Source: Prostheceraeus crozeri (taxonomy: Eukaryota > Platyhelminthes > Polycladida > Euryleptidae). Taken from it: a stretch of 64,000 bases of DNA. The stretch is taken from NCBI GenBank assembly GCA_907163375.1, contig CAJQUW010008748.1, forward strand, positions 310,001 through 374,000, given 5' to 3'. Positions 3,053 to 55,930 of this stretch are shown in pieces (within the stretch, counting starts at the first letter, position 1; each line of letters begins with the position of its first letter). The notes beneath the pieces were generated by a model, which saw nothing but the letters and a program-made list of their open reading frames with translations, did not search any database and was not told the origin of the DNA. The position numbers and the translations under genes are program-made.

Positions 3053-4709
3053 CAGATTGTTTCATAAAAAATGGATCACCCTTAGACATCGCCTTAACTT
3101 CAACTTTGTCTAACTCCGCCAAACTTGAACGAATTTCTCTGAAATTTGGAAGATATGTCAGTTGTGCTTACTAATATCATTGTTGGAAATTTCAAGCATG
3201 AATATTGAGTTGTTTTCCCGTTATAGATAAAAAAAGTAGTAGATAATTTGATCTTCATTTAGCAATGTTACACAAAATCATACCTCACTCTTATAAAATT
3301 ACATTTGGTTCCTTTGTTATGTAATATGTTGTTCTACAAGCCAAAAGCTATCAAGCAAAACAAAAATAAAGAAAATCGGTCAATCAGAGCCAGTATAGCA
3401 CCACTATTCATCAACAATAATGTAACTGCTACATGTGATTAACTTGACTTCATGTTCCATAGCTTCCTGACTTCGTTGCGGTGGTATTGGCAGCACTCCT
3501 GATTGCTTTCAGCTAGAAATCTATCTCTTACCGGTTGAAAACAATACAAATCACAAATGAACAATAACAAGATCGCATTCACAAAAGGCAAAGTGTCAGC
3601 CTTCTTAGAACTAGGGTTTTCTTTGCGAGTTACAAGCAAGCGACTAAATGTCCCTTACACAAATGTGCATCGATGGCATAATGATGATTTTCGACTCTGT
3701 CGTAAAGAGGGCTCTGGCCGTCCACGCAAAACATCCAAACGTAGAGACCGCCTAATTTTGAGATTTGTTAAAGTTGATCCAAGTCTCTCGTTAACTGAGA
3801 TGGCTGCACTAGACTCGTCTATTTCTAAGTCCACTATTCGTAGAAGACTTATTGAGTCGAATTTCAAGAGCTGTAAGAGGCCCTCTCAGATCGAATTATC
3901 AGATCAGCATACAAAAAGACGTCTCAGATAGGCAATGAGTCATTGTCACTGGCGAAAACAATGGGATCGGGCTGTCTGGTCTGATGAGGCATCAGTCTGT
4001 CTGAAGGATAGTGATGGTCGATTGAGATTATGGATAAAATCTGATCAGGAAATTCCGAGACATTTACATCGTCCCCGGGTACAAGGTGGTGCGACTCTAC
4101 TGATTTGGGCTGGCATTTGGACCAATGACCGCTCTGAACTTCACATACAGCAAGGAACCATGAATTCTGAACGCTATGTGAATGTTTTACGAATGAACAT
4201 TGGCCAAATGACAGATCAACTTGGTGATCCATCGACTTGGTTATTTATGGATGATAATGCTACGTGTCACAGGAGTAGTAGAGTCAACTTATGCAAGTCT
4301 CAATTAGGGCTTAGGACATTATCTTGGCCAGCTCGTTCTCCTGATCTGAATCCCATAGAAAATGTATGGAGTATTCTAAAACGTAACGTTCGTCGTTCAC
4401 TGCTACCTACAGATGGCGTATCACAACTTACGTCACTGTTAAAAAGAGAGTGGAGAAAGTTAGATCAGTCAAAAATCAACGATATCATCGAATCAATGCC
4501 TAGACGAATTGGAAATGTCATTGACAATACGGGTAGGGCCACAAAATATTAGCTTCTTAAGAACCGTTACTGTATCATAGCTTATCGGATTATATAAGGA
4601 CATTTAAATATATTAGGGACATGAAATAACATGAAAAATGCTTTCTGTATCATACTTGTGTTTTATTTAGTCAAATTTTAGGATGATCCACTTTTTATGA
4701 AACGGACTG
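3053..4709 (+). mobile_element. Tc1-like element, copy A (1.66 kb)
   Basis: Bounded by TA (3051-3052 and 4710-4711). The TIRs are about 30 bp, sharing GTTTCATAAAAA(A/G)TGGATCA. Copies B (37321-38464) and C (45572-47153) share the same ends. The related direct repeat near 9430 shows the site without the insertion (TTGAATAATGCATGAAATGG), which confirms the boundaries. It encodes a full-length transposase reading frame broken by one stop. Confidence 0.9.
3557..4552 (+). pseudogene. Tc1 transposase, one in-frame stop (copy A)
   Basis: A 331-codon reading frame starting at an ATG (MNNNKIAFTKGK) and ending 157 bases before the element's right end, the usual Tc1 size. Residues about 1-110 form the paired helix-turn-helix DNA-binding region, with a GRPRKTSKRR hook between its halves. 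The catalytic core follows: VWSDEAS (first Asp), LIWAGIW, FMDDNATCH (second Asp) and SPDLNPIENVW (Glu), with 34 residues between the last two acids (DD34E). The only lesion I see is TAG at 3929-3931, where copy C has TGG (Trp), so this is a single point mutation. Without it the frame runs to the stop at 4552. Activity on its own terminal repeats would be expected of the family; this copy is inferred to be inactive unless the stop is read through. Confidence 0.85.
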
Positions 4710-4909
4710 TACATGAAATGGGGCTCATTTTAATCTCCTGAAGATCTCCTGATCTTCAATATGACATCAGAATGAACTAATTTTGCAAGTTAAGAAAAAA
4801 AGAATACATTCTTCACAGTAAATGAATATGATGACGTCCTTGGCTTGCAGTGTTTAACGTCCTACACGGTGGTCAGGAAAGTCGCGAAAGTTCGAAATAA
4901 ATGGGGGAT

Positions 4910-5737
4910 CGTAGAGTAGGGATATGTAGGTAGAGTGTCGACTCTAAAAAATCTGTATGCAGTGAAAATTTTTATATCAAAAGATTCAGTTTTTTGCGTG
5001 GATTACGTTCCCGTGGTCGAAACAATTATTTGAGCACTTTTGAAAAAAGTCAAAATTTGCCAATTTATATTATTCTCTTAAATAAGTAGTATGAAACACG
5101 TTGGATACCAAAAGGAATGAACATTTGCTAATAATCATCCTAACCGCGGAAATCAAGCTGAGTATCAAGGGAATTTCATGAATTGTATTACAATGGAAGT
5201 CTTCATAAAAAAGTCGCGATCTTGTTAGTGTTTTCTTGGCTGAAATTTCAAGTTTCTAATTCAATTTTCATCTGCATGATTACATGATTCGATCACTAAA
5301 TTCATGTTTCATTTCTGGAATCTGAATAGTGATGTAGAGCCATTTACATCTTTCAAAGTTAAATGAAGTCATGTCTTTGATTATGTAATTTTGCTGTGCA
5401 AGTGGCAGGTTGCCTGTGAAATGATCACGCTTAAGAAAATACTCTTGAGGTCAAGCATGAAAGTAATAGGAAGCCATCGAATTTCTCATTCAACAAACAT
5501 TAAATATCCAAGGCTGTCATGAAAATCTGTGAAATACCATCATTCCTTTTGCATTACAATCATGATCACTCAATTCCTTTGTAATTTCTGCATAACTGCA
5601 AAAATTTGCATATTTCACATTTGGTGACAATTCCACCTGTATATTCCTAGAGTTCATTTAATAAAAACGAAAGTGTATACTCATTGGGGATTTAATAAAT
5701 GCGGAGTTACCACTCTACCTAATATAACTTCTCTATG
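4910..5737 (+). mobile_element. CATAGAGTAGG MITE (hAT-type), copy 1
   Basis: TGGGGGAT flanks both ends (4902-4909 and 5738-5745). The other arm of the host inverted repeat has a single TGGGGGAT, so the insertion and its 8-bp duplication are seen directly. Terminal repeats are C(A/G)TAGAGTAGG-like with a second AGGTAGAGTG block. An 8-bp duplication points to hAT. No coding capacity is seen. Four other copies lie at 21736, 28590, 48519 and 55095. Confidence 0.88.
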
Positions 5738-5745
5738 TGGGGGAT

Positions 5746-6374
5746 GATTTGTTTTGAAAAAATTGGTCTTATTAGAGCAAGAGAAATCATTTAAAAGAAA
5801 TTAGAAAATCTTTCATCGAGCCCATGTCGAGAAAATCGATAACTATTGGAAATCAATAATTTGTGATTTTAGCGCACATATTGAAATTGGGGGTGAACGT
5901 TGGACAACAAATATAAAACTGTGTATTCTTCTGCTAAATTCAGTCACAACTTTTGAAAATTTTATCAAGCCCTTTAGTAGAAAATCGATAATCATCGATT
6001 TGATCGATCCATAATTTTTCTAAATATTGGCAGAAATCGGTAGAAGTTGCTGCAAATAAAAATTGGGCAAACTTGATTGATATCACATAATTATGTTACT
6101 CATCTGCATGCTTGTTGCTTCAGACGCTGAGCTATAGAAATCAATCGAGCCCTTAAGGAGTAAATCGTGTGAATGTTTGACACATGCATTGCATTTATTC
6201 TGTTGGACTAGGCCTATTATGTAACTTTGTCCTCACTATGCCTCCTTAAATACTAATTGGGCGAATTCGATTAACTAACTTTATGTCACTTGAATATTGT
6301 TTTTGTTAAGTACGTACGTTACCTAGAAAATATATCGAGCCCTTACAGATTAAATCATGTGAATGTCTGACAAA
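5746..6374 (+). repeat. left long inverted-repeat arm with four internal modules
   Basis: Reverse complement of 8361-8990. Inside the arm, ATCRAGCCC followed by a short spacer and (A/T)AAATCG recurs near 5814, 5965, 6145 and 6334, at 150-190 bp spacing. The last two units extend into GTGAATGT(T/C)TGACA. Confidence 0.85.
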
Positions 6375-6937
6375 TGGATTGCATTTAGGAATACTGTGTC
6401 AATAGGCCCAATGTCTATTTTTTGGATCTTTAGCAAAGTTATATTCATGCATTTGTTTAATATTTTTTATTAGTCAGCTTCAGTCAGTTTCATTCCTATT
6501 TATTGAGCGTGATCAGCATGTTTTATTATGCGTGAAATAAAACTTAGGATAATTCATACTAATATGTCACTTTGTTCCTTCAATATGAAATGATCAGTTT
6601 ATTGACTTTACCAATGTACATTTTAATGACTTTGCAATGACTTTGTTATTTCTGTTCGCAACGCCACTAATTTGCATTGTTCTTTGTTCCGTGAACGAGT
6701 ATTATTATAATATCAAGTACAATGTAAACAGGTCCCGGTAATGAAAGTCTGATGTCATTTCAAACATCACTGATGATAAAAGACACACACTTTATGATAG
6801 AATATTATTGTAACCCATCTCCCTGTGACCGACAAAAAACATGAAAAGTTACAAATACTACAATGTTGCAAATGTTAAAATTCAACAACAGTTTGTCTCA
6901 ATGCTTGTTCATATCGTGGATTTGAAATATCATTCAA

Positions 6938-7881
6938 TTAACGCTTCATCCAGAATTCCTTTAACGCAACATGAACAGACTCTGATGTGTGTTCTGAGTA
7001 TTGGCCCAACGATTTACCATACCGCCAACAAATTTCGTGAACATGTCGAATCAAGATATGGACTTTCGGAGTGATGCCGATGCCCAAACCCAAGTAGGAA
7101 GTTTCGAACTCTGCAATTTTTTTCTTGGGCGTCAAATCTCAATGCAATTTCGAAACATGAATCGACTACATGACAGAGTTTTCGCAAAGAATCAACAAAA
7201 GGTTCAGGATTTGAATTGGACAAATTGCAGCCAGGGAATCAACATTTTGCAGAAGCTTTCTGCAATCTCCAACGGTAAAATTGTTGCCTCCATGATACCC
7301 AACAGGTTTTAAGATTTGGAAGATTCTGTTAAATGTACCCATCAATAGATGAAGTTCAGGTGGTGGTATGATGCTTAGAATCGGTTCTTCTTCAATCCTG
7401 ACGTTTGATTTAAGTAGCGGTTCGTTGATACAGTTAAACTATGCTTTGCTGTCGCACAAGTTACCTCCTGAGCGGATCCAACATTGATAGTGATGTCTCA
7501 TGTTTTTCAATGTTCTTGTCTTGGCATCAATCTCCCAAGCGCCCGAAGTCCCTTCACAATAACAGTATGGTTGTTGAGAGCCATGAGACCGCATACCACA
7601 CATGATATTTGCAAGTTTTAGATCACTAGCGACTAAGAAGGGAAGTTCATCAAGTCCCTCGATGTTATCCAAACATATTTGCACGTTTCGATATATTTAT
7701 TTCATCTCCGGTACGATTGCAAAGTTGAATAGGCCTTTGACACTTCCTTCCTTAGAGGCAGACAATGATGTCAAGCTATCATCATCTTCTCTGATGATGT
7801 TCAAGCACACTTTGAAGAATCCTTGACCTCCATCAGTGCCCAACTTGAATATGAGTTTACAAAAGATTATTATAATATCTC
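6938..7881 (-). pseudogene. decayed DDE transposase with RAG1/CACTA-supergroup-like motifs
   Basis: Read on the minus strand, one protein is recognisable across several lesions. It begins with KLGTDGGQGFFKVCLNI (candidate first Asp at 7832-7834) and passes a TAA at 7697-7699. It continues with ASDLKLANIMCG, a CYCEGT cysteine pair and RTL..M..HYQCW, then passes a TAG at 7439-7441. It continues with FNCINEPLL and IIPPPELHLLMG, then shifts frame near 7225 into LCHVVDSCFEIALRF. It shifts back near 7130 into ITPKVHILIRHVHEI and GQYSEHTSESVHVALKEFW (candidate Glu). The order of Asp, Cys-x-Cys with an acidic residue, ELH, and HV-x-EI followed by SE..ES resembles the RAG1/Transib/CACTA-Chapaev transposase core. 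The N-terminal region upstream of 7881 is not recognisable. Superfamily assignment is inference; that it is a dead transposase gene I hold with good confidence. Confidence 0.65.
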
Positions 7882-8360
7882 ATTAGTTCCTGAATAGATC
7901 TGATATGTATTGATGCGATCTGATACGATTTGATATGTATTGAGACACCGCATTGTTAGTATCAAACCGCAATTAGCTGATCGAAGTATTCAGTTGACAG
8001 ATGGGGACATGCGTATTTATGCTTAATAGAATGAAAAGCAACAGACCGGTCTAGCTTCGATGGATAATGAGCCATAATGATTCAAAGACTTTTTGGCTGC
8101 AGAACTAACATCACAGCTTGGCTCAAGAGTTTTGCTGATGTTTGTTAAGTAACAACGAAAAGTTGCCAACTAAATTAGGCACGAATGAACACCACATGTC
8201 ATACCCGCAAGAAACAAAGTATAATTGTATATATAACAAAGTGATATATTTATCAGAGGTCGTTTGTACGCAACAATTCAATGCCCCATTAGCATAACAT
8301 GAACTAAAAAATCGCCTATTTAGTACTTGAGGACAGTCATACACAGTAAAATATAGCCCA

Positions 8361-9034
8361 CATGTCAGACATTCACATGATTTAATCTGTAAGGGCTCGA
8401 TATATTTTCTAGGTAACGTACGTACTTAACAAAAACAATATTCATGTGACATAAAGTCAGTTAATCGAATTCGCCCAATTAGTATTTAAGGAGGCATAGT
8501 GAGGACAAAGTTACATAATAGGCCTAGTCCAACAGAATAAATGCAATGCATGTGTCAAACATTCACACGATTTACTCCTTAAGGGCTCGATTGATTTCTA
8601 TAGCTCAGCGTCTGAAGCAACAAGCATGCAGATGAGTAACATAATTATGTGATATCAATCAAGTTTGCCCAATTTTTATTTGCAGCAACTTCTACCGATT
8701 TCTGCCAATATTTAGAAAAATTATGGATCGATCAAATCGATGATTATCGATTTTCTACTAAAGGGCTTGATAAAATTTTCAAAAGTTGTGACTGAATTTA
8801 GCAGAAGAATACACAGTTTTATATTTTGTTGTCCAACGTTCACCCCCAATTTCAATATGTGCGCTAAAATCACAAATTATTGATTTCCAATAGTTATCGA
8901 TTTTCTCGACATGGGCTCGATGAAAGATTTTCTAATTTCTTTTAAATGATTTCTCTTGCTCTAATAAGACCAATTTTTTCAAAACAAATCATCCCCCATT
9001 TTTTCGAACTTTCGCGACCTTCTTGACGACCGTG
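8361..9034 (-). repeat. right long inverted-repeat arm
   Basis: Uninterrupted reverse complement of the left arm, with the same four modules near 8376, 8566, 8741 and 8893. It provides the empty site for the MITE insertion at 4910. Confidence 0.85.
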
Positions 9035-9284
9035 CCTACACAATAGAGTGAAATGCAACGCGAATTTTAACAGTGAACTATTCGTGGTTGAAAGGACAAA
9101 TTTAAGAATTTTAGCCACTTGACATCTCCGCACGTGCATTGAACTCCCAATTATGATTACTGCAATAGCGAATTTAAATTAACTCAACGAATTTTTAAAA
9201 CAATCCCTATAATTTTGCTGGAACAGTAGCGAAAATGTGGAATATAGAAGTCTGCCAATTAGACGCTCAACATCGAGATAAAAT

Positions 9285-21735: not shown

Positions 21736-22593
21736 CATAGAGTAGGGATATAAGAGGTAGAGTGTCGACTCAAAAAAGTATCTGTATACAGTAAAAAATT
21801 TTATAATGAAAATATTCAGTTTTTTGCGGAGATTACGTTCCTGCGTTCCAAAAAAATTATTTGAACAGTTTTGAAAAAGCTAAATTTTTGCCAATTTATA
21901 TACTACCGACATGACGCCCCTTTATAAGTAGTATGAAACAAGTTGGATATCAATAGGAATGAACATTTGCTAATAAGCATCCTAACTAAGCGGAAATTAA
22001 GGTGATTATCAAGAAAATTTCATGATCCGTATTATAATGGAAGTCTTCATAAAAAAGTCGAGATCTGCTTTTGCTTTCTCGGCTGAGATCTAAAGTTTAT
22101 AATTCAATTTCCATCGGCATGATTTCATGATTCACTAAATTCATGTTTCATTTCTTGAATCTGAATAGTGATGTGGACACATTTACACCTTTCAAAGTTA
22201 AATGAAATCATTGTCTTTGATTATGTGATTTTGGTCTTCCAGTGGCAGGTTGCCTTTGATATGATCACGCTTAAGAAAATAATACTCTTGAGGTTGAGCA
22301 TGAAAGTAATAGGAACATATCGAATTTCTAAATCAACAAACATCTCCAGTCCATCTCCAAGGTTGTCATGACATTGAGAATCTGTAAAATACCATCATCC
22401 CTTCTGCATTACAATTATGATCAGTCAATTCCGTTGTAATTTCCTCAAAACTGCAAAAATTTGCATATCTCACATTTGGTAACAATTACCAACTGTATCC
22501 ATCTCGAGTTCATTTAATAAAATCGAAGCTGCATACACATTGGGGATTTAATAAATGCGGAGTTGCCACTCTACCTAATATACTTACTCTATG
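21736..22593 (+). mobile_element. CATAGAGTAGG MITE (hAT-type), copy 2
   Basis: Flanks GACCGTTC (21728-21735) and GACCGTCC (22594-22601) differ at one base, an aged 8-bp target duplication. Ends are CATAGAGTAGGGATAT and, reversed, CATAGAGTAAGTATAT. The body aligns with copies 1, 3, 4 and 5. No transposase. Confidence 0.9.
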
Positions 22594-28581: not shown

Positions 28582-29310
28582 GTTGGATAAATAGAATATG
28601 TATAGCAGTTAGAGTGTCGACTCAAAATGGTATCGGCATACAGTGAAACTTTTTATATGAAAAGATTCAGCTTTTTGCGGAAATTACGTTTCTGCGGTCC
28701 AAAAAATTATTTGAGCAGTTTTTAAAAAGCTTCTATTTCTTCTAATTAAGAGTTTTCATTAGAATTTTTTTAATTTTAGTTTTTAAATGTTTGTGAATTA
28801 TTCCTGTGTTTAAATACTACCGACTTGAAGCCACTTTATAAGCAGTATGAAACAAGTTGGATATCAAAAGGAATGAATGTTTGCTAACAACCATTCTAAT
28901 TAATCGGAAATCAAGCTTATTATAAAGGGAATTTCATGAACTGCATTAACCCTTTCACAGCGGCTAATGTATTGAAAAATTATTCTTTCACATGCGGATG
29001 GCTTGCTGTGCGAGTCATAAGAAGTTTTCCTCTCAGTGCGGCATGGCCTGCTCTACGAGCCATAAAATTCAGCGGGAAAACACGTGTTAAAGTGATAAGA
29101 TAATGAAGGACGAAATGTTGATAACTTTGGAGAACATTTTTTTACTTGTGGGCGTATCGGTATCTCTTATCGCAAAACATGTCATTGTCATCCAAACGTT
29201 GACGCGGAAACCCTTTTATCTCAAACAGTGCATTTGCTAATATTTGGCTAATAAACCTGATTTCTTCAGAACTGATTTTTTTCCAACTGAGATTGTGAAC
29301 ACTAACTATT

Positions 29311-31335
29311 ATGTACCGCAAACGATATTCACTGGATCCTACTGTAGAATTGATCTGCCTAAACAGTGACGACGGAATGGATAATGTTAGTGAAAGCGAC
29401 TCTGATGATTCAGATCAGTTTTCTGATCTTGATGACTCCGTCCTACCGCAGTTGACTATGTTGCCGCCCGATCCATCACCTGTTAATTTTACGTCATTCG
29501 CCAAAGCTGATTCTCCACCTATTCTCAAGGATTCTTTCGTGTCCTCCGCTTCCGGCTCCGCTGCCGTTTCTCGCACGACTTCTGCTCAAATTGCCAGTCC
29601 GTGGAAATTTGTCGAAGAGGCGAACGATAGTCGCTCGGAGCTCCCACCCTTTCTCGGTGCCGCAGGTCTTCGAACAACATACGAAGAAACAATGCTGTCA
29701 AACACAAGTGATGTTGACATTTGCAGAAGTGCTCTCAGTTTTTTTATTACGGATGAGTTAATCGAAACACTTGTGCAATTTACAAATATTCGTGCTTCGA
29801 TCTATCTTCAAACAGAAGCTCTAAAGCCCCATTCTCGCTTTAGAAATTGGACGAATTGCTCTTTCGCCGAAATGAAGAAATTCATCGGTATTGTACTGCT
29901 GATGGGCGTCGTGAGGAAGCCTCAACTCACTGACTACTGGAGTACTGATGATTTAGTTTGTACTCCCTTCCTTCACTCCGAATTTTCTCTTACACGAGAT
30001 CGTTTTCTCTTGATTTTACATTTCATTCGATTCGCAAATTATGAAAATCTCGGTGACGAAGAGAATTGTCTTCGTAAGATTCAGCCATTTGTTAACTTGA
30101 TTCGTTCGATTTGTAAGGATGCGTATAGGCAATCTCAGAATGTGACTGTGGACGAGTCTTTACTTTTATATAAAGGTCGGCTGTATTTTAAACAATACAT
30201 ACCGGCGAAGAGAAGGCGCTTCGGAATCAAAATTTATTTTTTATGCGAAAGTGACTCTGGTTTTACATTGAACTTTTCATTTCACACTGTAAAAGCAGAT
30301 CGTGATCAGTTTGCCTCCGCTTGTTCTAGTCTCAGTGTATCGGAGCGAATCGTTGTTTATCTTTGTGATGAACTATTGGATTTAGGATACACTGTTTGGT
30401 GTGATAATTGGTTCAACAGTGTCAGGTTGGCCAATTATTTATTATCAAGAAGAACGCTTTTAGTCGGCACTATTCGTCCGAACCGTGGTGTCCCGCCCAT
30501 GCTTCAGGAGGCCGTGGTAAATGTAAGAGAGACAAAGTTTTTGCGTTCGGACGACTTGCTTCTATCTAAATTTTGTGATAGAAAGTCGTCTGGACAGAAA
30601 ATTGTTTTTATGATTGACACAAAAAACAAAGTTGCTCTTTCCGATTGCCAGCGGGTTATAAAAGGTGGAAAGAGAATAATTTTTTAGAAAGAGTACTACC
30701 ATGTCGGAGTATAATAAATTTATGGGAGGAGCTGATCGTGCTGATCAAATTTTACATACTTATGACGCAACTCGAAAATCATACCGCTGGTTCCATAAAG
30801 TGTGCATACATCTTATTCAACGAATGTGCCTCAATGCCACATTGTTTATTCCATTTACGGGGGCCAGGAAAATTTTCAAAATTTCTTAATGTCATGTGTT
30901 CGTCTCTTTCTGTGTGAAACAGGGGTAGGGAGGCAACCTCCTATACCTCGAAATGCGTCGTGTGCTTCAAACTCGCATTTTCCATCTAAGTTTCAACCAA
31001 GAGGAAATAACATTCATCCGACTAAAAGATGCCGTGTGTGTTATTCACTTGGTAGGATTAAAAAAACTACCGTATTTTGTGATGCCTGTCCAGGAAAACC
31101 GGGACTTTGCATTAGTCCATGTTTTGGCAATTACCGCTCCATATTGCATCCATCCATTAGCTTTCTTCGTTATTGCATGATCAATCTTGAAGATAGTAAA
31201 AGTCAAATATGTGGATTATATATTAAAATTATGTATTTAAAGAAGCTTTCAGTTGCACGAATATTCTCATTTGGGGATTGGAGGGTAGACCTTCAATGTT
31301 TGCTATTTAAAAAGAAAAACTCCGATTTTCTATAA
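29311..31335 (+). pseudogene. piggyBac transposase with two frameshifts
   Basis: It starts at MYRKRYSLDP, with an acidic Ser/Asp-rich N-terminus (residues about 18-45). The catalytic core (DDE_Tnp_1_7) begins near residue 130. NVTVDESLLLYKGR carries the first Asp at residue 281, and TVWCDNWFNSVRLANYL the second at 365. The frame ends at 30687. The next frame carries EYNKFMGGADRADQILHTY (third Asp) and RKSYRWFHKV up to a stop at 30889. The original frame then resumes with the C-terminal cysteine-rich domain (CRVCYSLGRIKKTTVFC, then CFGNY, about 31030-31130). The combined length of roughly 600 residues is normal for the family. Two compensating frameshifts near 30690 and 30890 disable it. The stop at 31335 may lie beyond the original end. 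Confidence 0.9.
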
Positions 31336-31668
31336 CTGAGCAGGAAAGGTGCTGAAATGCATCGTTCGATCTTAAAATATCGGAGTTATTCTATCTAAAT
31401 GACAAACAGTGAACTAGCGGAGGCCTACACTCCAATGCCCTGAATAAAAATATTGCAATTACAATTTGAATTTATCAGCGGCGTAGGGTGCCGTTTTGAA
31501 AAAGGAATTCGAGGAAAATCTGAATATAGGGTGATCCACATACATTATTTCAATCTATTCATATGCAAGCGCTTACATGCAAGACAAGTAATTAATACTA
31601 CTGTACACGGATATGTGCAAAACTTCGCCTTAAATCAAACTATGCTCCGCATACATTTTGCATTGATG

Positions 31669-32512
31669 CAGGGGTCTTCAAAAATTAATTGAACCTCAAT
31701 TAATTGATGTCAATTAATTGATTGCACTGAATTTCATTTATCAATTAATTTATTGTATTCAACTCAATATCAATTAATTGATTGTTTTCATTTCCAATTA
31801 TCAATCAATTGATTGCTGCATGTCCCAATATCAATTGATTGATTGATTCATAATCAATTAATTGGTTCAATTATTTTATCAAGTTTCACTCCATTGTAAT
31901 ATATAGCATTACAATTCACCTAAGATTTTCGCTTCTTCCTGCGCATCCACTGTACAAAATTCATTCTGCTGACTCAATCTGACACCTCTCAACTCTCTGA
32001 TCTACTGCATATTCTTCAACATGATTGCCCTTACTTGTCAAGCTTCGAAAGTCATTATCCATGGACAACTAGATAATATAGGGGGAGGGTCAAAGCTGAG
32101 AGTTCATAAAACGATGATAATTATTGAAATCTGAATCAATAAAATCAGTGAACATCAAAACTATGGGGATGCAAAATGATCATACAATATTAATACCGGC
32201 ATTTTAACTGATTAAAACGAGTTCCAATATGAATACAATTATTCTAGGCTAACTCTATTTTATGAAATATAGGCCTACATGTTTTTCCATTGACTAATTA
32301 ATAATTATCGATCAGTTAATTAATAAATTCTATTATCAATTAATTGATTGTCTGTAATTCCAATTACCAATTAATTGATTGCCCGGGAGTCCAATGCCAA
32401 TTAATTGATTAGTCAAACTTTCAATTAAAATTAATTGATTGGTAAAAATATCAATCACAATTAATTGATTGGACTGAGCAATTTAATTGCAATCAATTTT
32501 TGATGACCCCTG
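31669..32512. mobile_element. hAT-type MITE packed with CAATTAATTGATT repeats
   Basis: CATTGATG flanks both ends (31661-31668 and 32513-32520), a perfect 8-bp duplication. The TIRs are CAGGGGTC(T/A)TCAAAAATT, the CAG start usual for hAT. Two internal blocks (31684-31870 and 32310-32505) repeat CAATTAATTGATT about every 30-40 bp, separated by a non-repetitive centre. No coding capacity. It lies inside the piggyBac. Confidence 0.9.
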
Positions 32513-34457
32513 CATTGATGTAGGCCCGCTATATGCATGCACAGTTGCACATATCAAAAACACTACACATCAACAAATTGAAAAAATTAAATGATGGCTT
32601 GCTTGTGAAGAATTCCATAATTATAATCCAAACATTGAACACATACAAACGTAGATCACGACAACGCTTCTTTACTCTACAAAATTCATCAAAATCATAG
32701 GAATTTTGTTTTGATGAAAGTTCGAAAAACATATTTTTTCAATTACTTTCGAGTAACATTTCATATCAATTTCTTGTTTGTTTTCAAGTACTCCAAACGA
32801 TCTGAGATTTCACACCAAAAGTTGTCAAAGTGTATCTGAATCAACTGAAAGTTGCCCTATTTCAACAACACCATTCAAATTCCTTGGTTGAACAGTGGAT
32901 ATGATAAAGCATCCTCAGCGGTTCTGCATTTGTCTCTGTATAACTGCGTATGATTCCATGATTACACGAATGATGGCAAAAACAGCTGCTTCCCAATTGC
33001 CCCGCATTCTCTATCCCGACAATGTTATTCAGTCCGCCAGGTTGAATAGTAGCCTTATGCTTGTAGCATTGAAGCTGATAGTATAAGCGTCGACACGGTG
33101 TCTTAATTAAGGAGTCTTGCGATAACGCACCTAATATAAGTGCTATTGTTGCTAAATCTTAGAGGAGACGTCCAAGAAACAAGAAGTGGAATCAAAATTA
33201 ACGCTGATTGATATCGTTGCTTTTTACAATAGCTACTTTGGAATCAAACCGAATCACTAAGCCGTAAAACAGTTTGCTATTCATCATTAAAAATCGATGG
33301 AATCAATTCACAACTTAACACAGAAAATAAATAGATATTCAGGGAATGCTGTGAATACTATACCCGCCACGCCACTGGAACTTATTCTTATTATAAAAAT
33401 GTCTATGCAATGAATCCTCTTAGCGAACATTTTAATTTGAGCCTATACAGCCCTACGTATATTTTCACTTTACAGTATGGCGACTTTTTTTTGAGCACTC
33501 TATGTACATTTTATTACTGTGCATATTGGTATAATATATTTTCGGCCATCCTCGCAGTTGACTTCTTCCTTGATTATATTTTAGAAGCGAAGGCGATGAT
33601 GTTGTTGTCATCGACCACGTTTATCCTTCATTCATACATTCTAACGTTTTGATCACTCATTTGTTACTTTGACATTACAATCGACAAACAACAGGAAACA
33701 GGTAAATTCATTAGCGGGAACCTGGTGTACGACGTGGCTTATCGGTGTCTGAGCCGCCGATCAGGCGATATGTGATTAGGACCGAAGGAGATAAGGAGAT
33801 AAGAACGCCTCTGTCGTCAGCCCCTCAATACTGCCGCATAGGACAGAATTTTAAGAAACATCATCGCCGCAACACAGAGAAAGTTTTCGTGGCTCGCTCT
33901 GCGAGCCATGCCGCAGTGAAGGGGTTAAGATGGAAGCCTTCACGAAAAAGTCGAGATCTTATTGTGGTTTCTTGGCTGAAAATTCAAGTTTTTAATTCAA
34001 ATTTCATCGGCATGATTTTTGGACCCAATATCTTTGTGTGGACCCATTTACATATTTTAAAGTTAATTGAAATCATTGTTTTTCATTATGTTACTTTGCT
34101 CTACCATCCAGTGGCAGTTTGCTTGTGATATGATCACGCTTAAGAAAATACTCTTGAGATTGAGCATGAAAGAAATAGGAACCCATCGAATTGCTAATTC
34201 AACAAACATTACCTCTCTCAGCAAGGCTGTCATGACACTGAGGATCAGTAAAATACGATTATTTCTTCCACATTACTGTCATATGATCCGTCAATTCCGT
34301 GGTAATTTCTTCAAAACTCCAAAAGCTTAGCATATCTCACATTTGGTCTGTGTTCACCTCGAGTTCATTTAATAAAATCGAAGCTGTATACACATTGGGG
34401 GATTTAATAAATGCTGAGTTGATACTCTACCTAATATACTTACTCGATGGTTGGATA

Positions 34458-37320: not shown

Positions 37321-38464
37321 CAGATTGTTTCATAAAAAATGGATCACCCTTAAACATCGCCTTAACTTCAACTTTGTCTAACTCCGCCAAACTTGAACGA
37401 ATTTCTCTGAAATTTGGAAGATATGTCAGTTGTACTTACTAATATCATTGTTGGAAATTTCAAGCATGAATATTGAGTTGTTTTCCTGTTATAGATGAAA
37501 AAGTAGTAGATAATTTGATCTTCATTTAGCAATGTTACACAAAATCATACCTCACTCTTATAAAATTACATTTGTTTCCTTTGTTATGTAATATGTTGTT
37601 CTACAAGCCAAAAGCTATCAAGCAAAACAAAAATAAAGAAAATCGGTCAATCAGAGCCAATATAGCACCATTATTCATCAACAATAATGTAACTGCTACA
37701 TGTGATTAACTGGACTTCATGCTCCATAGTTTCCTGACTTCGTTGCGGTGGTGTTGGCAGCACTCCTGATTGCTTTCAGCTAGAAATCTATCTCTCACCG
37801 GTTGAAAACAATACAAAGCACAAATGAACAATAACGAGATCGCATTCACAAAAGGCAAAGTGTCAGCTGGCATTTGGACCAATGGCCGCTTTGAACTTCA
37901 CATACAGCAAGGAACCATGAATTCTGAACGCTATGTGAATGTTTTACGAATGAACATTGGCCAAATGACAGATCAACTTGGTGATCCATCGACTTGGTTA
38001 TTTATGGATGATAATGCTACGTGTCACAGGAGTAGTAGAGTCAACTTATGCAAGTCTCAATTAGGGCTTAGGACATTATCTTGGCCAGCTCGTTCTCCTG
38101 ATCTGAATCCTATAGAAAATGTATGGAGTATTCTAAAACGTAACGTTCGTCGTTCGCTGCTACCTACAGATGGCGTATCACAACTTACGTCACTGTTAAA
38201 GAGAGTGGAGAAAGTTAGATCAGTCAAAAATCAACGATATCATCGAATCAATGCCTAGACGAATTGGTAATGTCATCGACAATAAGGGTAGGGCCACAAA
38301 ATATTGGCTTCTTTAGAACCGTTACTGTATCATAGCTTATCAGATTATATAAGGACATTTAGATATATTAGGGACATGAAATAACCTGAAAAATTCTTTC
38401 TGTATCATACTTATGTTTTATTTAGTCAAATTTTAGGATGATCCACTTTTTATGAAACGGACTG
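37321..38464 (+). mobile_element. Tc1-like element, copy B, internally deleted
   Basis: TA at 37319-37320 and 38465-38466, ends as in copy A. About 0.5 kb corresponding to 3595-4112 of copy A is missing, so the transposase start (MNNNEIAFTKGK) runs straight into GIWTNGRFELHIQ. The element sits inside the LINE's catalytic box. Confidence 0.92.
37824..38258 (+). pseudogene. Tc1 transposase, deleted and frameshifted (copy B)
   Basis: The first 15 residues match copy A. The deletion then removes the DNA-binding domains and the first catalytic Asp. FMDDNATCH and SPDLNPIENVW remain, 34 residues apart between Asp and Glu. A frameshift near 38200 (LLKRVEKVRS in place of LLKREWRKLD) ruins the C-terminus. 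It cannot be active but could still be mobilised through its intact ends. Confidence 0.85.
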
Positions 38465-41383: not shown

Positions 41384-42721
41384 CGAGGCGTGTTCAAATG
41401 AAACCCGTTCGCTATACTGTATTTGTAGAATAGTAGGCAGACAAAATAAAAGCACAATCAATCAGTAACAACTGTATTATTAACATAAAAACAAAAGCAA
41501 CAATCAAAAAAATTCTCCGTTGACTTCCCGGCTCTTGTCCCATGCTTGGGTAGGCGTTGAGTTCCGTCGGCAAAGAAGGACTTTGGCTGTCCTTTGAACC
41601 AATCCCTAACAGCTGTCTTCACTTCTTCGTCTGATCGGAATCGTTGTCCCTTGAGAAACGTCTTCAGGGGACCAAAAATGTGAAAATCACAAGGTGACAG
41701 GTCAGGACTGTATGCAGGGTGTTCCAAAACTTCCCAACGCTTCCTTGTCAATGCGTCAGATGTCGCCTTCGAAACGGGTGGTCTTGCGTTGTCGTGAAAA
41801 AGAATGACACCTGAAGACAAAATACCGGGTCGATTGCTCTTTATCGCTTGGTGAAGCTTGTCCGAAGTCTGGATATACCGCTGCGAATTGATTGTTTCGT
41901 TGGGTTCAAGAAACTCGAGGAGCAGCGGGCCCTGAATATCGAAGAACACCGTGAGCATCACCTTCCCTGCAGATTGTTGCACTCGGAACTTCTTCGGCTT
42001 GGATGAACTTTGATGCTTCCACTGCATGCTGCTCTGCTTCCCTTTCGGCTCGAAATGATGGCACCACGTCTCGTCTCCAGCCACAATGCGACGCAAGAAC
42101 TGCTCATTCTCGGTGTTGTAGCGAGTCAGGTGTTCCAAACTGAGTGTTCTCCGTCTTTCCTTGTGGTCTTCAGTAAGCATTCGAGGCACCCATTGAGAAC
42201 AAACTTTGTGATACTGCAACTTTTCCTTCACGATGGTATGCACTGAGCCAATTGAGACATTGAAGTCATCTGCCAGATCTCGAATGCTTCGTCGACGATC
42301 GGCTCTGACTGCGGTATCGATGGTCTCAGTCAGACTTTCAGTCACCACTTTGTGCGCCTGTCCAGGACGTGGCAAATCAGATGTTTCAGTTCGCCCCTCT
42401 CGAAACTTCCTTGACCACTCTGTCACTGTGGTCTTGAAACAGCTCGATCTCTGTATACTGATGCCATTCTGCGATGGATCTCTGCTGGCATGCATCCTTC
42501 TGCGGGCAGGAATTGAATAACCGCTCTCTGGTCTTCTTTGGACGGACTTTCTACCATGAATGACATTTCATTAACCGTGAACAACAGATACACTTGATGA
42601 ACAAACACATTGTCACGCTGTTATACAGCACTGAATAGTACTCCAAAGGTCTGCTTTGATTAATTGGTCATGCATGAACCCGCTAAGATAAGTCGAACGG
42701 GTTTCATTTGATCACGCCTCG
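41384..42721 (-). mobile_element. mariner element, 1.34 kb
   Basis: TA at 41382-41383 and 42722-42723. The TIRs are CGAGGCGTG(T/A)TCAAATGAAA and continue into CCCGTTCG. Length and layout are those of a complete mariner with one transposase gene on the minus strand. Confidence 0.95.
41458..42566 (-). pseudogene. mariner transposase (DD34D), one frameshift
   Basis: The likely start is the ATG near 42566 (MSFMVESPSKEDQRAVIQFL), followed by GCMPAEIHRRMASVY of the first helix-turn-helix. A frameshift near 42445 moves the rest to the frame containing TVTEWSRKFREGR. In that second frame (345 codons from 42495) come the second DNA-binding helix, the SQWVPRMLTEDHK linker (family form WVPHxL), VAGDETWCHHFEP (first Asp), ILFHDNARPP (second Asp) and AYSPDLSPCDFHIFGPLK (third Asp). 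The last two Asp are 34 residues apart, the mariner signature. The catalytic domain is otherwise open to its stop at 41458, so this is among the least damaged genes in the window. One indel separates it from a full frame. Confidence 0.9.
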
Positions 42722-45571: not shown

Positions 45572-47153
45572 CAGTCCGTTTCATAAAAAGTGGATCATCC
45601 TAAAATTTGACTAAATAAAACATAAGTATGATACAGAAAGCATTTTTCATGTTATTTCATGTCCCTAATATATTCAAATGTCCTTATATAATCTGATAAG
45701 CTATGATACAGTAACGGTTCTTAAGAAGCTAATATTTTGTGGCCCTACCCTTATTGTCAATGACATTACCAGTGACGAAAGTTGTGATACGCCATCTGTA
45801 GGTAGCAGTGAACGACGAACGTTACGTTTTAGAATACTCCATACATTTTCTATGGGATTCAGATCAGGAGAACGAGCTGGCCAAGATAATGTCCTAAGCC
45901 CTAATTGAGACTTGCATAAGTTGACTCTACTACTCCTATGACACGTATGACACATCATCCATAAATAACCAAGTCGATGGATCACCAAGTTGATCTGTCA
46001 TTTGGCCAATGTTCATTCGTAAAACATTCACATAGCGTTCAGAATTCATGGTTCCTTGCTGTATGTGAAGTTCAGAGCGGCCATTGGTCCAAATGCCAGC
46101 CCAAATCAGTAGAGTCGCGCCACCTTGTGCCCGGGGACGATGTAAATGTCTCGGAATTTCCTGATCAGATTTTATCCATAATCTCAATCGACCATCACTA
46201 TCCTTCAGACGGACTGATGCCTCATCAGACCAGACAACCCGATCCCATTGTTTTCGCCAGTGACAATGACTCATTGCCCATCTGAGACGTCTTTTTGTAT
46301 GCTGATCTGATAATTCGATCTGCGAGGGCCTCTTACAGCTCTTGAAATTCTACTCAATAAGTCTTCTACGAATAGTGGACTTAGAAATAGACGAGACTAG
46401 TGCAGCCATCTCAGTTAACGAGAGACTTGGATCAACTTTAACAAATCTCAAAATTAGGCGGTCTCTACGTTTGGATGTTTTGCGTGGACGGCCAGAGCCC
46501 TCTTTACGACAGAGTCGAAAATCATCATTATGCCATCGATGCACATTTGTGTAAGGGACATTTAGTCGCTTGCTTGTAGCTCGCAAAGAAAACCCTAGTT
46601 CTAGCAAGGCTGACACTTTGCCTTTTGTGACTGCGATCTTGTTATTGTTCATTTGTGCTTTGTATTGTTTTCAACCGGTAAGAGATAGATTTCTAGCTGA
46701 AAGCAATCAGGAGTGCTGCCAATACCACCGCAACGAAGTCAGGAAGCTATGGAACATGAAGTCCAGTTAATCACATGTAGCATTTACATTGTTGATGAAT
46801 AATGGTGCTATACTGGATTTGATTGACCGATTTTGTTTATTTTTGTTTTGCTTGATAGCTTTTGGCTTGTAGAACAACATATTACATAACAAAGGAAACA
46901 AATGTAATTTTATAAGAGTGAGGTATGATTTTGTGTAACATTGCTAAATGAAGATCAAATTATCTACTACTTTTTTTATCTATAACAGGAAAACAACTCA
47001 ATATTCATGCTTGAAATTTCCAACAATGATATTAGTAAGCACAACTGACATATCTTCCAAATTTCTGAGAAATTCGTTCAAGTTTGGCGGAGTCAGACAA
47101 AGTTGAAGTTAAGGCGATGTTTAAGGGTGATCCATTTTTTATGAAACAATCTG
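45572..47153 (-). mobile_element. Tc1-like element, copy C (inverted)
   Basis: TA at 45570-45571 and 47154-47155, same ends as copy A but reversed. Small internal deletions shorten it to 1.58 kb. Confidence 0.93.
45729..46652 (-). pseudogene. Tc1 transposase (copy C), stop and deletions
   Basis: Starts MNNNKIAVTKGK at 46652. A TAG replaces a Ser codon of copy A after RRRLIE (near 46350). At the position of copy A's stop this copy keeps Trp (RWAMSHCHW). VWSDEASVRLKD, LIWAGIWTNG and WLFMDD follow, with an indel in the second Asp motif, then SPDLNPIENVW. Near 45775 a deletion of roughly 90-100 bp joins VSQLS to the last residues. The lesions differ from those of A and B, so the copies decayed independently. 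Confidence 0.85.
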
Positions 47154-48518: not shown

Positions 48519-49301
48519 CATAGAGTAGGTATATCAGTTGGAGTGGCAACTCCGCATTTATTCAATCCCCAATGAGTATACACTTTCGATGTTATTGAAT
48601 GAACTCGTGGGGGATACAGGTGGCATTTGTCAACAAATGTGAGATATGCAAATTTTTGCAGTTTTGCAGAAATTACAACGGAATTGACTGATCATGATAC
48701 TATAATGCAGAAGGAAATGATTTTACTTTACAGATCGTCCGTGTCATGACAGCCTTGGAGAGGCAGTGTTTGTTAAATTAGCAACTCGATGACCTGTTCT
48801 TGCTTTCATGCTTGACCTCAAGAGAATCTTCGCAAGCGAGATTATATCAGAAGCAACTTGCCACTGGTAGAGCAAAACAGCAAAATCAAGGACAATGATT
48901 TCAATCAACTTTGAAAGATGTAAATGGGTCTACATCACTATTCAGATTCAGGAAATGAAACATGAATTTAGTGAATCATGAAATCATGCCGATGAAAATT
49001 GAATTGAAAACTTGAAATTCCAGCCATGAAAGTATGAATAATATCGCGACTTTTTCATGAAGACTTTCATTATAATACGGATCATGATATTCCCATGATA
49101 TCCAACTTGCTTTCATACTACTTATATAGGAGAGTCATCTCGGTAGTATATAAATTGGCAAATTTTGACTTTTTTCAAAAGTGCTCAAATAATTGTTTCA
49201 ACGTAATCCACGCAAAAAACTGAATCTTTTCATATAGAAATTTTCGCTGTATACAGATACTTTCTAGAGTCGGCACTTTACCTATATATCCCTACTCTAT
49301 G
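48519..49301 (-). mobile_element. CATAGAGTAGG MITE (hAT-type), copy 4 (inverted)
   Basis: TGTCCAAT lies at 48511-48518 and 49302-49309, a perfect 8-bp duplication. Both ends are exact CATAGAGTAGG. Orientation is opposite to the other four copies. Confidence 0.93.
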
Positions 49302-49309
49302 TGTCCAAT

Positions 49310-51511
49310 TATATTATCATTTAGTTTTGTGCATTCATATGGAGACAATTTGTTGATTTATACTTGATTTTAGTGAAAAATCACACTAAGAAACTTTTGC
49401 TTATTCTCCTTGTTGCGCAAGATTTCTATTTTAATTCATTTTCTTATTATTTCACCTCATGATGTGATGAAATGCGATTTCCACATCACAAATTTCAATG
49501 CCTATGTTAGAGAGTGTCGTGATTGGCGAATAATCGTCATCTTTCATCCTGAGTGATTGTTTCTCACTGGCGAAGCTTATCAGATGGTCGTCGAGTGTGT
49601 ATAGTTACATCATCAATAGCCATGAAACACTCATTGATGACTTTCTCTGATATTATCGTGATAGAGTCATTTTCTTCACGGCGCCATTGATGTACTTAGC
49701 CTACATTCGAGCAAGAAGAAGTAATCCATTTAAAATCTATACAGTTGATTCTTGAGATTCCTTTAGCAATCACAGCTACCATTTTACAAACAAAGTCAAA
49801 CGCAGTCTTCGCATCAAAATTTAAATCATAATTTCAAAAGCTAAAGAATTTGACAGTGCCTAATTAGTGTGCATGCTCACACAGAGACAGAGCTTTGCAT
49901 GCTGCTGCTTTGCCTTAGGCCTTCTTATCAATTTATACTCGAAGAAAAAGTGCACAACTATCAATTTCCCATTAAACATTTCTTCAATTAATAATTTTTG
50001 ATCTATATGTTGGTTAAAAGCTACAGTTAAAAGTTAAAATCTATCTTGTTGGTTTCAAGAGCCGTCACATCTCAGAAAGCACTGTCATAGGCGGACACTC
50101 GCATCAACAAAAAGTTGCGGGGCGAATGAAAGACTTCTATCCCTTCGACTTGAGCCGAATTCGCACTCTGCTGTCACACATCACTCCAACGTTTAGCACT
50201 AGTGCGTATAGAACATATATAATATCAGTCATCGAAATGTCTGATATTTAAGTTAAGTTGCAGATCAACTTAGTACCCTCAATTCTAATCGACAGTGAAA
50301 ATTCAATATCAGAAAAATATGGTCGTAAATAATTTTTATGTAGCTCTTGTGGCTGAAAGGAGGCCTTCTAGTGATTATTAGTTCCGGCGTGAGAGAAAAA
50401 CCGAGGGGGCATCATTTCTCCCACTGAGGCAAGTAGGGCTAACTACAGTGCAATCTGAAAATAACTTTATCAATCAGAGTGTTTTTCGGCAGAAACTTAT
50501 CATCTCAGAGTGCGAAATTTAATTCTAATGGCCGTAAAATATGAGCGCGAAACCTAGAAATTTCGTAGCTCCAGTCGTTTTTTTGGATTTGTGTAGCAGA
50601 AATTCATATTTTACACTTATCTATTAGTGAATTCAACTAATCTTTGTCAAAGAAATACGGCTGTCCACATGCATAATTCAACGATTTACATCATTTACAT
50701 GTGTGACGGTAGAAAACTGAAATTCTAAAAAATAGTGAAAAAACTAAATTAAGATCAATTATTGTAAATATTGAAATTATTAAAAAAAATAAGATATATA
50801 CAATAATAAAAATATATAATAAAAAAATCATATAAAATCCACCGTAATGTTGATTAGAGCTGTTGAACAGCAAATGATGTTCTTTGACAGAGATATGAAG
50901 TTTTGAAAAGAAAGAGGACATTTTCGAAATTGTTACTCTTTCCACCATCCTCAATAATATGTTGTTCAGAATATTTGTCTAGAAGATATGATCTTAAATA
51001 AACGAATTCGACAGCTCAATTTACATGTCTTGATTGATAAATCAGTAATATTGATTGTCATTCCAACCCAGCCTCTTGTAATATAATATCACATGACATC
51101 CATCTCTAAAAGCAATAAAAATGCTGACATTCGAATGACATCAAAGCAGCACACAGATATCAGGAGAAACGATGAATCTGTGCACTGCGAGAACGTGGCG
51201 CATGACAGTAAAAATTCTTTTCAATTATTACATGTTTTTCAAAATAATAACTTGAATGATTATGTCGTCAACATGGGAGGGATCCGTCAAAAGGCAAACG
51301 ACAACCTGTGAGTTGCAAAAAAGAATCATTCCAGTTATTTTATCCAATTGTCTACCAATGCGAAATGCCTTGGGAACATTCCGATACCTAGTAGAAATCA
51401 ACAAAAAATTTATCTTTCTAATAAAATCAACGTAAGAAAATTTGAAAACTGCATTGAAGCATATTTCTGAAATTGAAAGCATGTTGGAATGAATAAACAA
51501 TTCAAAAATTC
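49310..51511. other. 2.2 kb without recognised gene
   Basis: Contains a very AT-rich patch at about 50740-50835. No coding motif. Confidence 0.5.
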
Positions 51512-51765
51512 TGGTGTACGAAAGGTGTACGAGGCCGGGTTGTAGGGTGCTAGGTATGCGGTGTAGGGTACGAGGTCCGGCGTACACGGTACGCGGTGCG
51601 AGGCATGCGGTTGGTGGTAAGAGGTACACACTGGGATGCATGGTACGCGGAACGGTGTACGAGGACGGGTAGCAGGGTACGAGTTTCACTGTACATAGTA
51701 GGCCTACGAGGTACGCGGTACAGGGTACGAGTTACGCGGAATAAGGAACGAGGTTCAGGTACAAA
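51512..51765. repeat. 7-bp minisatellite based on GGTACGM
   Basis: About 250 bp of degenerate heptamers (GGTACGA, GGTACGC, GGTGCGA, GGTACAC and relatives). Seven is not a multiple of three, so every frame of a strand gives similar repetitive peptides (for example RVPRT or YRVRRTS on the minus strand). The long open frames here are a by-product and not genes. Confidence 0.8.
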
Positions 51766-52076
51766 AAAGAATCGATGCTGTCTTTTCATCACTTTGCATT
51801 TTATTTCAATCATCTTGCCTTGTGGTGGACTGTTTTTTACAATATCCAATAAAGATTCTCTGCAGCTATTCATTCTGTGGAAATTATGGAAAAACATGTT
51901 GCTCGATACACAAACAACAAACAAATTGTTAAATAGCAAGTAGAAATAACATTCCATACCCACATTCATCTCCTTTTGCAACAAGTAACCGCGATTGGAG
52001 TCGGGGTTCGGGATATGAGATCACGACCCAAGCACCACTTATTGTTCTGCACGGAGGATGGCGTATACGTAGACAA

Positions 52077-52806: not shown

Positions 52807-55094
52807 GCTAGTCACATGCATATGGATAGACACACACTCGTTAGTCTATGCAGGAGAACTCAGACAATTGTGTAGAAAGAGCACTTGTCTGGCTTTCTGT
52901 TTAACATTTATCCAGATCCTGGTCAGGCAAGAGATGTGATCGTGGTTGGTGTCTATTTGCAGTTTTATTTGCACCATAGGTGTGTTAACTACTCGTAATT
53001 TTTGATTTCCACAATTAACTATGCTACTGAATGAAGAGTGCAGTTTCATTTTTCCACATATTGCACCCTCATTCTTTTTTTGTTATATCTTGCTTGTATA
53101 TGTGGTGAGAATATATATTTGCATATACAGCATAAAAGTAATGCAATTATTCTAAATGGCTTTCAGATATATAATGGCAAAGAAAAATGTACGTTTGTTA
53201 GATTCGCGATCATTAACGAATACAATAACTTTCAGCACAAATTGAATATTGTGCAATTATCACTTACTTTATCTTGATAAATAAGGTTTCCTAATGATAT
53301 GTCAACGTCATGCAATAAACCAACGTGTCTTACTTAATAATATGATCATAAAATTAATGGGAATTCTCTATCGCAAACCATGCAGTCCGGACATTTTGAG
53401 ATTCGGTGTTCAGTCTGATATTATGGGATGAAGTTATTAGATAACGTTATACAGTTTCAATATTTGAGAAATTCTCGCTAACAATGTTTGAGCAAACATT
53501 CCGACTTAACAAATAACTTCAACAAAGCTGAACGGATTAGCAGAATGATAGACACAATGCTTACTTTATTTCCATTATCCCATAGGTGAAATTGATATAA
53601 GAATTTGATCACGCTTTGCAACCCAAAAATAGCTCTTTTGCAAAAGACACATCAGCATTCAAAAATTGATTTGAACAGGATTCTGTCAGATTTAAATGGT
53701 TTCACACCAACTAGCGGAAAGTCCACTTACCGGAAGTCCACTACTCTCCCAATACTTCGTAAGCAAATTGATGAATTGCAGACTTGGCAATCGGCAAAGA
53801 GATAGTCTTCACTTAAAAAATTCTTGGAATGAACGCTTCGTAAATCGTTCACACCACGAAAGGCTGTTATACCGTTTTGCTTATTCTCATAAAATTTGAT
53901 CGTGAGGTTGATAATTGATTGATTACTAAACTTATTGACTTGATCAGTCAAGACACGTGGCTTAGGAAACAGTATGGTTTGCCTAATTGAATGAACTAAG
54001 TAGTGATTAGAAATTGGTTGCTTCATAGCTGAGCATTTCATGTCGGTACTCGTGTGTCCTCCTGTCATCATTGATTGAGTTGTAAAAATCTTGTGGATCC
54101 CCTTATCGGACGCAAGCGTCAGCAACTGCGACTTGAAGAAATACTGTTGTTTGTGAACAGGTACAGCACGGAGGCAGACAGGCAGATGAGGCGGCCCCGT
54201 CTGCAGAACACAGATTCGAAATCTTCTGCTGACCTCACCGGAGGGAAATGATGACTTACAAAATGACTGAGTATGGGAATAACACAAATTGGAAGTTTGC
54301 CAGTGAACGGATGGGCCGATCTTGATAAAACTTACAAATTCTTGGAGCTAATAGCACCAGCATTCTTTAAAACCCAAACTCGAAAGCGCCAGATTTAATG
54401 CAACAAACAAAGTGTTAATTGAATAAAACTGTAACAAATCTTGTCGAAATTCGAAAAAATATATATCATCTAAGAGCTTAACACGAACCTGATTCATTGG
54501 TGATAATCTTAATTTTCTGCATTCCGTAGTTTCGTCTGCAGGTGTCGGTGAATGAATTGACCAAAAATTCATACTTTTAAGTCTGCTGACCACAACTGAC
54601 CAGACACAACCTAAATGCTCTTCCAATCTAAAGTACTAAACGCAACCTATCACATGATATAAAGTTGATTGAAATTGAGGATCTTCATCATTGAAAATTT
54701 GCGTCAGATATTCTTTTAGCAGCAACTAATTGGTAAAACTTATTGGTATTGAATCTCTTTGCACATTCAACGAGTCTTAAAATCTTTATAACATGATGAA
54801 GCTGAGTGATAGTTTACACTGTGTGTAAATTTTCATTAAAATTTACTTCATATTAAAATCCTGCATTAAGGAAAATGTTTTAATTTCTTTCGTAGGGCCT
54901 ACTGACCACAGCTGACCACTTAAGAAAGCAAAATAAATGCCAAAATAAATAGAGTAGAAGGCCTCATATGATATATCGTTCATTGAAATAGAGCAAGGAC
55001 TTCAACACGAATATTACGTTAGATAGGTTAACTTTGTTTGTGCAATTATTTATGAAACAGTTACATGACATCACAGTTACATGACATCAACACT
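52807..55094. other. 2.3 kb without recognised gene or element
   Basis: Open frames near 53605-54287 lack any known motif. Confidence 0.5.
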
Positions 55095-55930
55095 CATAGA
55101 GTAGGGATATATGGGTAAAGTGTCGACTCTAAAAAGTATCTGTATACAGCGAAAATTTCTATATGAAAAGAATTCAGTTTTTTGCGTGGATTACCTTCCC
55201 GTGGTCGAAACAATTATTTGAGCACTTTTGAAAAAGTCAAAATTTGCCAATTTATATACTACCGAGATGACTCTCCTATATAAGTAGTATGAAAGCAAGT
55301 TGGATATCAAAAGGAATGAATATTTGCTAATAAGCATCCTAACTAAGCGGAAAGCAAGTTGGTCATCATGGGAATATCATGATCCGTATTATAATGAAAG
55401 TCTTTATGAAAAAGTCGCGATATTATTCATACTTTCATGGCTGGAATTTCAAGTTTTCAATTCAATTTTCACGGCAGGATTTCATGATTCACTAAATTCA
55501 TGTTTCATTTCTTGAATCTGAATAGTGATGTGGACCCATTTACATCTTTCAAAGTTGATTGAAATCATTGTCCTTGATTTTGCTGTTTTACTCTACCAGT
55601 GGCAAGTTGCTTCTGATATAATCTCGCTTGCGAAGATTCTCTTGAGGTCAAGCATGAAAGCAAGAACAGGTCATCGAGTTGCTAATTTAACAAACACTAC
55701 CTCTCCAAGGCTGTCATGACACGAAATAATATCATTTTCTTCTGCATTATAGTATCATGATCAGTCAATTCCGTTGTAATTTCTGCAAAACTGCAAAAAT
55801 TTGCATATCTCACATTTGTTGACAAATGCCACCTGTATCCCCCACGAGTTCCTTTAATAAAATCGAAAGTGTATACTCATTGGGGATTGAATAAATGCGG
55901 AGTTACCACTCTACCTAATACACTTGCTCA
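55095..55930 (+). mobile_element. CATAGAGTAGG MITE (hAT-type), copy 5
   Basis: The left end is exact CATAGAGTAGGG. The right end is eroded (CTTGCTCA). Flanks TCAACACT and TCAACGAA agree in the first five bases. The body aligns with the other copies and is closest to copy 4. Confidence 0.85.

Follow-up and report, generated by a model that had tools for sequence, protein, structure and literature searches.

The window analysed here, 64,000 nucleotides of contig CAJQUW010008748.1 from the polyclad flatworm Prostheceraeus crozeri (assembly GCA_907163375.1, positions 310,001 to 374,000), contains a stretch, 4865-9034, that is one DNA transposon, bounded on inspection of the sequence by CACGG...CCGTG (Table 1). 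Its terminal sequences, CACGGTGGTC and CACGGTCGTC, both start with CAC, and a copy of CCTA lies immediately outside each of them. Both features had been claimed in an earlier note on this DNA and both are present, the 4-bp length of the duplication being read from one copy only. The long terminal inverted repeats (TIRs) described in the same note exist as inverted arms, each near 690 bp once a nested insert is removed, but the left arm is not continuous, because it is split by a MITE that had been overlooked. The 8-bp duplication TGGGGGAT on both sides of this insert and BLAST matches (75-84% identity) in five further stretches of the window show that it is a separate element.

Table 1. Features of the transposon and of the MITE family that interrupts it (positions in the window)
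Feature	Position	Strand	Remarks
Transposon	4865-9034		CACGG...CCGTG
Target site duplication CCTA, left	4861-4864		same as 9035-9038
Target site duplication CCTA, right	9035-9038		same as 4861-4864
Left TIR, outer tip	4865-4909	+	CACGGTGG...GGGGGAT; aligned to 8991-9034
Right TIR, outer tip	8991-9034	-	ends CCGTG; aligned to 4865-4909
Nested MITE	4910-5737		828 bp; starts CGTAGAG, ends CTCTATG; from junctions and BLAST matches
8-bp duplication around nested MITE	4902-4909, 5738-5745		TGGGGGAT
Inner left arm	5738-6386	+	modules ATC(G/A)AGCCC...AAATC(G/A) at 5815, 5964, 6144, 6334
Inner right arm	8349-8998	-	four modules, starting 114, 264, 444, 634 bases from the tip; each ATC(G/A)AGCCC, then a stretch with AAATC(G/A)
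Transposase relic, one frame	6860-7876	-	six stops
Stop codons in relic frame	7699-7697, 7441-7439, 7168-7166, 7141-7139, 6940-6938, 6877-6875	-	
GTDGGQG, presumed first catalytic Asp region	7820-7840	-	equivalence to RAG1 ESCDGMGD by eye
Presumed second Asp (DLKL) to second Cys	7556-7624	-	gapless RAG1 match
PPPELHLLMG, LH motif	7337-7366	-	relic residues 171-180
H(4)H and presumed catalytic Glu block, HILIRHVHEICWRYGKSLGQYSEHTSES	6977-7060	-	best gapless match to 3jbw_A
Nested-MITE match	21738-22593		BLAST
Nested-MITE match	28592-28948		BLAST
Nested-MITE match	33930-34449		BLAST
Nested-MITE match	48519-49299	-	BLAST
Nested-MITE match	55094-55920		BLAST

Between the arms, the minus strand carries a transposase relic in one frame with six stop codons, the last of which may be the natural end of the frame. 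Over the same stretch the other minus-strand frames hold 20 and 24 stops and the plus-strand frames 14, 16 and 20, and in first-order Markov simulations (n=2000) the best of three frames averaged 15 stops, with six or fewer in 0.15% of cases. Given how few stops this frame has relative to the others and to the simulations, it was once coding and is dead today. The earlier note had pieced the protein together from joined minus-strand segments, which turns out to be unneeded: GTDGGQG, CYCEGT, PPPELHLLMG, HVHEI and SEHTSES all sit in this one frame without a frameshift. Introns were considered as an explanation of the stops and set aside, since conserved-looking blocks run on in the same frame on both sides of them, a judgement that leans on presumed animal relatives. 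The motifs PPPELHLL and G-x-WSEQ-x-SES presumably also occur in predicted proteins from cnidarians and further animals and, if this is right, the relic belongs to a widespread family. No N-terminal part of the transposase is recognisable, no Chapa zinc finger was recognised by eye in the three frames upstream of the relic, and single-sequence structure prediction of the relic was unusable (mean pLDDT 36.9).

A presumed acidic triad can be picked out in the relic, consisting of the D of GTDGG, placed by eye, and the D of DLKL and E of TSES, placed by alignment to RAG1. An LH motif is present as PPPELHLLMG, and the first Asp precedes LH as it does in RAG1, again by eye. The H(4)H motif, HILIRH from relic residue 273, aligns to RAG1 HKTLAH, and the spacing from Asp to the second Cys is the same in the relic and RAG1. 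What had been taken for a Cys-x-x-Cys is not one: CYC is Cys-x-Cys, and the codons of this broken copy give Y-C-Y-C opposite the C-x-x-C of RAG1, such that RAG1's first Cys faces a Tyr, the second Cys is kept and C(2)C is absent.

As a reference for sequence comparison we built a profile from the PDB chains 3jbw_A and 4wwx_B (RAG1) and 6pqn_A (Transib), which we take to be zebrafish RAG1, mouse RAG1 and Helicoverpa Transib, respectively; over the compared stretch 4wwx_B agrees with 5zdz_A, a chain named mouse RAG1. With hhalign the relic reached 31.3 against this profile (E 0.0018, calculated for a single comparison). In a first set of controls 200 shuffles scored 24.5 or less and the reversed relic 17.4, and in a second set 400 shuffles scored 23.1 or less and five other transposase pieces from the window 10.5-18.8. 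The signal is located in residues 263-339, which score 31.0 alone, and residues 1-262 score 13.9, which is shuffle level and no signal. The kinship with the RAG1/Transib core that had been proposed from motifs thus stands for the C-terminal catalytic block, but not for the rest of the frame. Alignments to single sequences were weak, at 23.2 (E 0.023), 22.1 (0.033) and, for Transib, 15.6 (0.25), so Transib alone gives nothing. When the profile was searched with hmmsearch against 1157 sequences from the window (1156 stop-to-stop pieces of at least 30 residues and the whole relic), rank 1 (E 0.0021) was the relic's own C-terminal piece, identified by index, followed by the whole relic (0.027) and a third sequence at 0.25. 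When 23-residue pieces were paired without gaps, the H(4)H block came first of 124581 pairs for 3jbw_A; for 4wwx_B it came fourth, below three unrelated pairs, and the stretch from Asp to Cys came 26th of 123313. For Transib neither block made the top four at this length, and with pieces of 36 residues the H(4)H block ranked 4 of 96976.

Our preferred reading, to which we give a probability of about 0.78, is that this is a dead cut-and-paste transposon that belongs by descent to the CACTA-Mirage-Chapaev-Transib/RAG1 supergroup and has Chapaev-like ends. CMC was reportedly defined by Yuan and Wessler in 2011. As the CMC/CMCT criterion is worded in the passages available from PMC12730594, C(2)C and H(3-4)H lie between the second D and the last E. 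In this interval the relic, a broken copy, has H(4)H and no C(2)C, and we hence file it as a probable member of the supergroup by descent, not a proven one. The earlier note had named Chapaev as a possibility, and Chapaev is indeed the best-fitting lineage, though not proven. Four of the five hallmarks listed in the available passages of PMC4079192 (a 3-4-bp duplication, CAC/GTG ends, C(2)C, LH and H(4)H) are found here, whereas C(2)C is not, and no Pfam or relevant PDB match backs the assignment. Chapaev as described in the excerpts at hand (PMC4079192, PMC4411706) also shares a Transib/RAG1-related core with the relic. By the same published descriptions the relic differs in having Y-C-Y-C for C(2)C, no recognised Chapa domain and modular arms of ~690 bp. 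The Chapaev passages available from PMC3630058, PMC6004678, PMC4298943 and PMC5718144 contained nothing deciding the placement.

It is also possible, although we lean against it, that the relic falls within the supergroup yet outside Chapaev, coming instead from a CNEST-like clade, Mirage or an unnamed lineage, an explanation that overlaps with our preferred one. The absent C(2)C would fit such an origin, and, according to the parts of PMC12810828 at hand, CNEST has a CMC-type core and ends that start CACGG like those of the relic, in a clade sister to Chapaev and Mirage that includes unclassified animal transposases. By that partial account, CNEST differs from the relic in its 2-bp TA duplications and 33-bp inverted repeats, against CCTA and arms of ~690 bp here. 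Since C(2)C is lacking and a clade with CACGG ends exists, we refrain from placing the relic in Chapaev.

We consider it unlikely that the C-terminal match arose by chance or convergence and that the relic descends from a DDE superfamily unrelated to this one but likewise with CAC ends. One might suspect as much from a signal that is limited to residues 263-339 and rests on three sequences, with no Pfam family matched by the relic up to E 10 and phmmer hits in the PDB limited to a pair of unrelated ribonuclease P chains (E 1.4 and 1.5). But none of the shuffles in either control set reached the relic's score, the stretch from Asp-x-Lys to Cys is sixth among the 124581 pairs for one RAG1 (3jbw_A), the order of the first Asp and LH follows RAG1 by eye, and the ends and duplication fit the supergroup independently.

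Searches for relatives covered the window and collections of viral and prokaryotic contigs. BLAST found no second copy of the element within the 64 kb, and a pattern of the element ends had no match in the collections scanned. Pattern searches for relatives in viral contigs gave 21 matches, none confirmed; the PPPELHL pattern occurred there in 6 stretches (best tblastn E 0.13), and an HV-x-E...SE pattern occurred in 2 viral contigs and 1 genome contig, with no tblastn match up to E 1. The motif strings of the relic had no match in a literature search.

A long shot is that the element comes from a lineage, so far undescribed, that lies between Chapaev and Transib/RAG1 and in which a RAG-type core was combined with fold-back-style arms of four subterminal modules, their likeness maintained by inter-arm conversion. 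Galileo and Tetris also have long inverted arms, but are listed elsewhere than the relic, in the P superfamily and Foldback, respectively. The arms of Galileo and Tetris have a modular make-up. Close kinship with the RAG1 ancestor, of the ProtoRAG/TransibSU type, is highly improbable: the left end, CACGGTG, agrees with the CACAGTG heptamer at 6 of 7 positions and the right end at 5 of 7, but the duplication is 4 bp where Transibs typically make one of 5 bp (PMC4411706, in the passages available), and the best nonamer at six RSS-like spacings scores 5/9, a value that, out of 5000 random stretches of the window, 1143 equalled and another 388 surpassed. Inside the element there is no open frame of at least 120 residues, stop to stop, and hence no candidate for a RAG2-like partner. 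With Transib/RAG1 (6pqn_A, 3jbw_A, 4wwx_B) the relic shares H(4)H and the catalytic-Glu block, as well as RAG1's spacing from Asp-x-Lys to Cys; overall similarity is weak, the duplication is not 5 bp and there is no nonamer. Nothing found places the relic specially near RAG1, the best nonamer match of its ends being no better than that of random window DNA. Relics of the supergroup add points to the tree that gave rise to the V(D)J recombinase, the enzyme of antibody-gene recombination in vertebrates, and although one broken copy cannot order its branches, this one is useful as a probe for intact relatives.

Returning to a supergroup member with Chapaev-like ends, the anatomy fits cut-and-paste by a DDE enzyme of that supergroup with a 4-bp stagger, where the cutting chemistry would be that of its relatives. 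The living transposase would have attached to the CAC-starting ends and, probably, to the repeated arm modules, which look like putative subterminal binding sites. The element would have been excised and then inserted with a 4-bp stagger to leave the CCTA duplication. Its coding frame has since gathered stop codons, and a small MITE with 8-bp duplications inserted into the left arm. The two arms are not equally alike along their length. Over 45 columns the outer tips show 3 substitutions and 1 gap (86% over 42 ungapped), whereas the inner arms form two blocks that are 98% and 100% complementary, and BLAST gives 99.5% identity over 636 columns (left part 5738-6372). Counted as changes, the tips have 4 in 45 columns against 3 in 628 for the inner arms up to 6372 (Fisher p 0.0005), or 9 in 642 when the inner arm is extended to 6386 (Fisher p 0.007). 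That the inner arms are far more alike than the tips hints at homogenisation of the former through inter-arm conversion, or at their fresh remaking by fold-back duplication. The alternative is that the asymmetry of the tips was inherited. Near-identical inner arms beside diverged tips offer a small testable case of conversion in long-inverted-repeat arms.

The nested MITE belongs to a family (the CATAGAG MITEs) whose copies at 21738-22593, 48519-49299 and 55094-55920 are 78-84% identical to it. Two copies are themselves flanked by an 8-bp duplication, which is GACCGTTC/GACCGTCC (one mismatch) in one case and ATTGGACA (exact) in the other. Duplications of 8 bp are what hAT elements make. The matches at 28592-28948 and 33930-34449 are probably two halves of one copy, as their outer flanks both carry GTTGGATA; over 28592-34449 this copy is apparently split by a piggyBac-type element, with TTAA at 28946 and 33925 and ends CCCTTTCACAG / CAGTGAAGGGG. 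Within the piggyBac-type insert lie a transposase frame (29299-30687; Pfam DDE_Tnp_1_7, E 9.9e-54) and tandem repeats of ~30 bases rich in CAATTAATTGAT (31683-31850 and 32325-32471). Rfam, at gathering scores, had no match in the whole window, and the window has matches to Tc1/mariner, piggyBac-type and reverse transcriptase proteins, which mark it as eukaryotic DNA, probably from an animal. Tc1-type transposase frames at 3539-4552, 37806-38258 and 45936-46349 are very similar by eye, with a Pfam DDE_3 match at 3932-4549. Overlapping open frames with repetitive-looking translations occupy 51228-52020 (51228-51731 and 51550-52020 on the minus strand, 51554-51943 on the plus strand), and a mariner-type transposase frame of 369 residues (41458-42567, minus strand; Pfam Transposase_1, E 9.7e-19) is still open.
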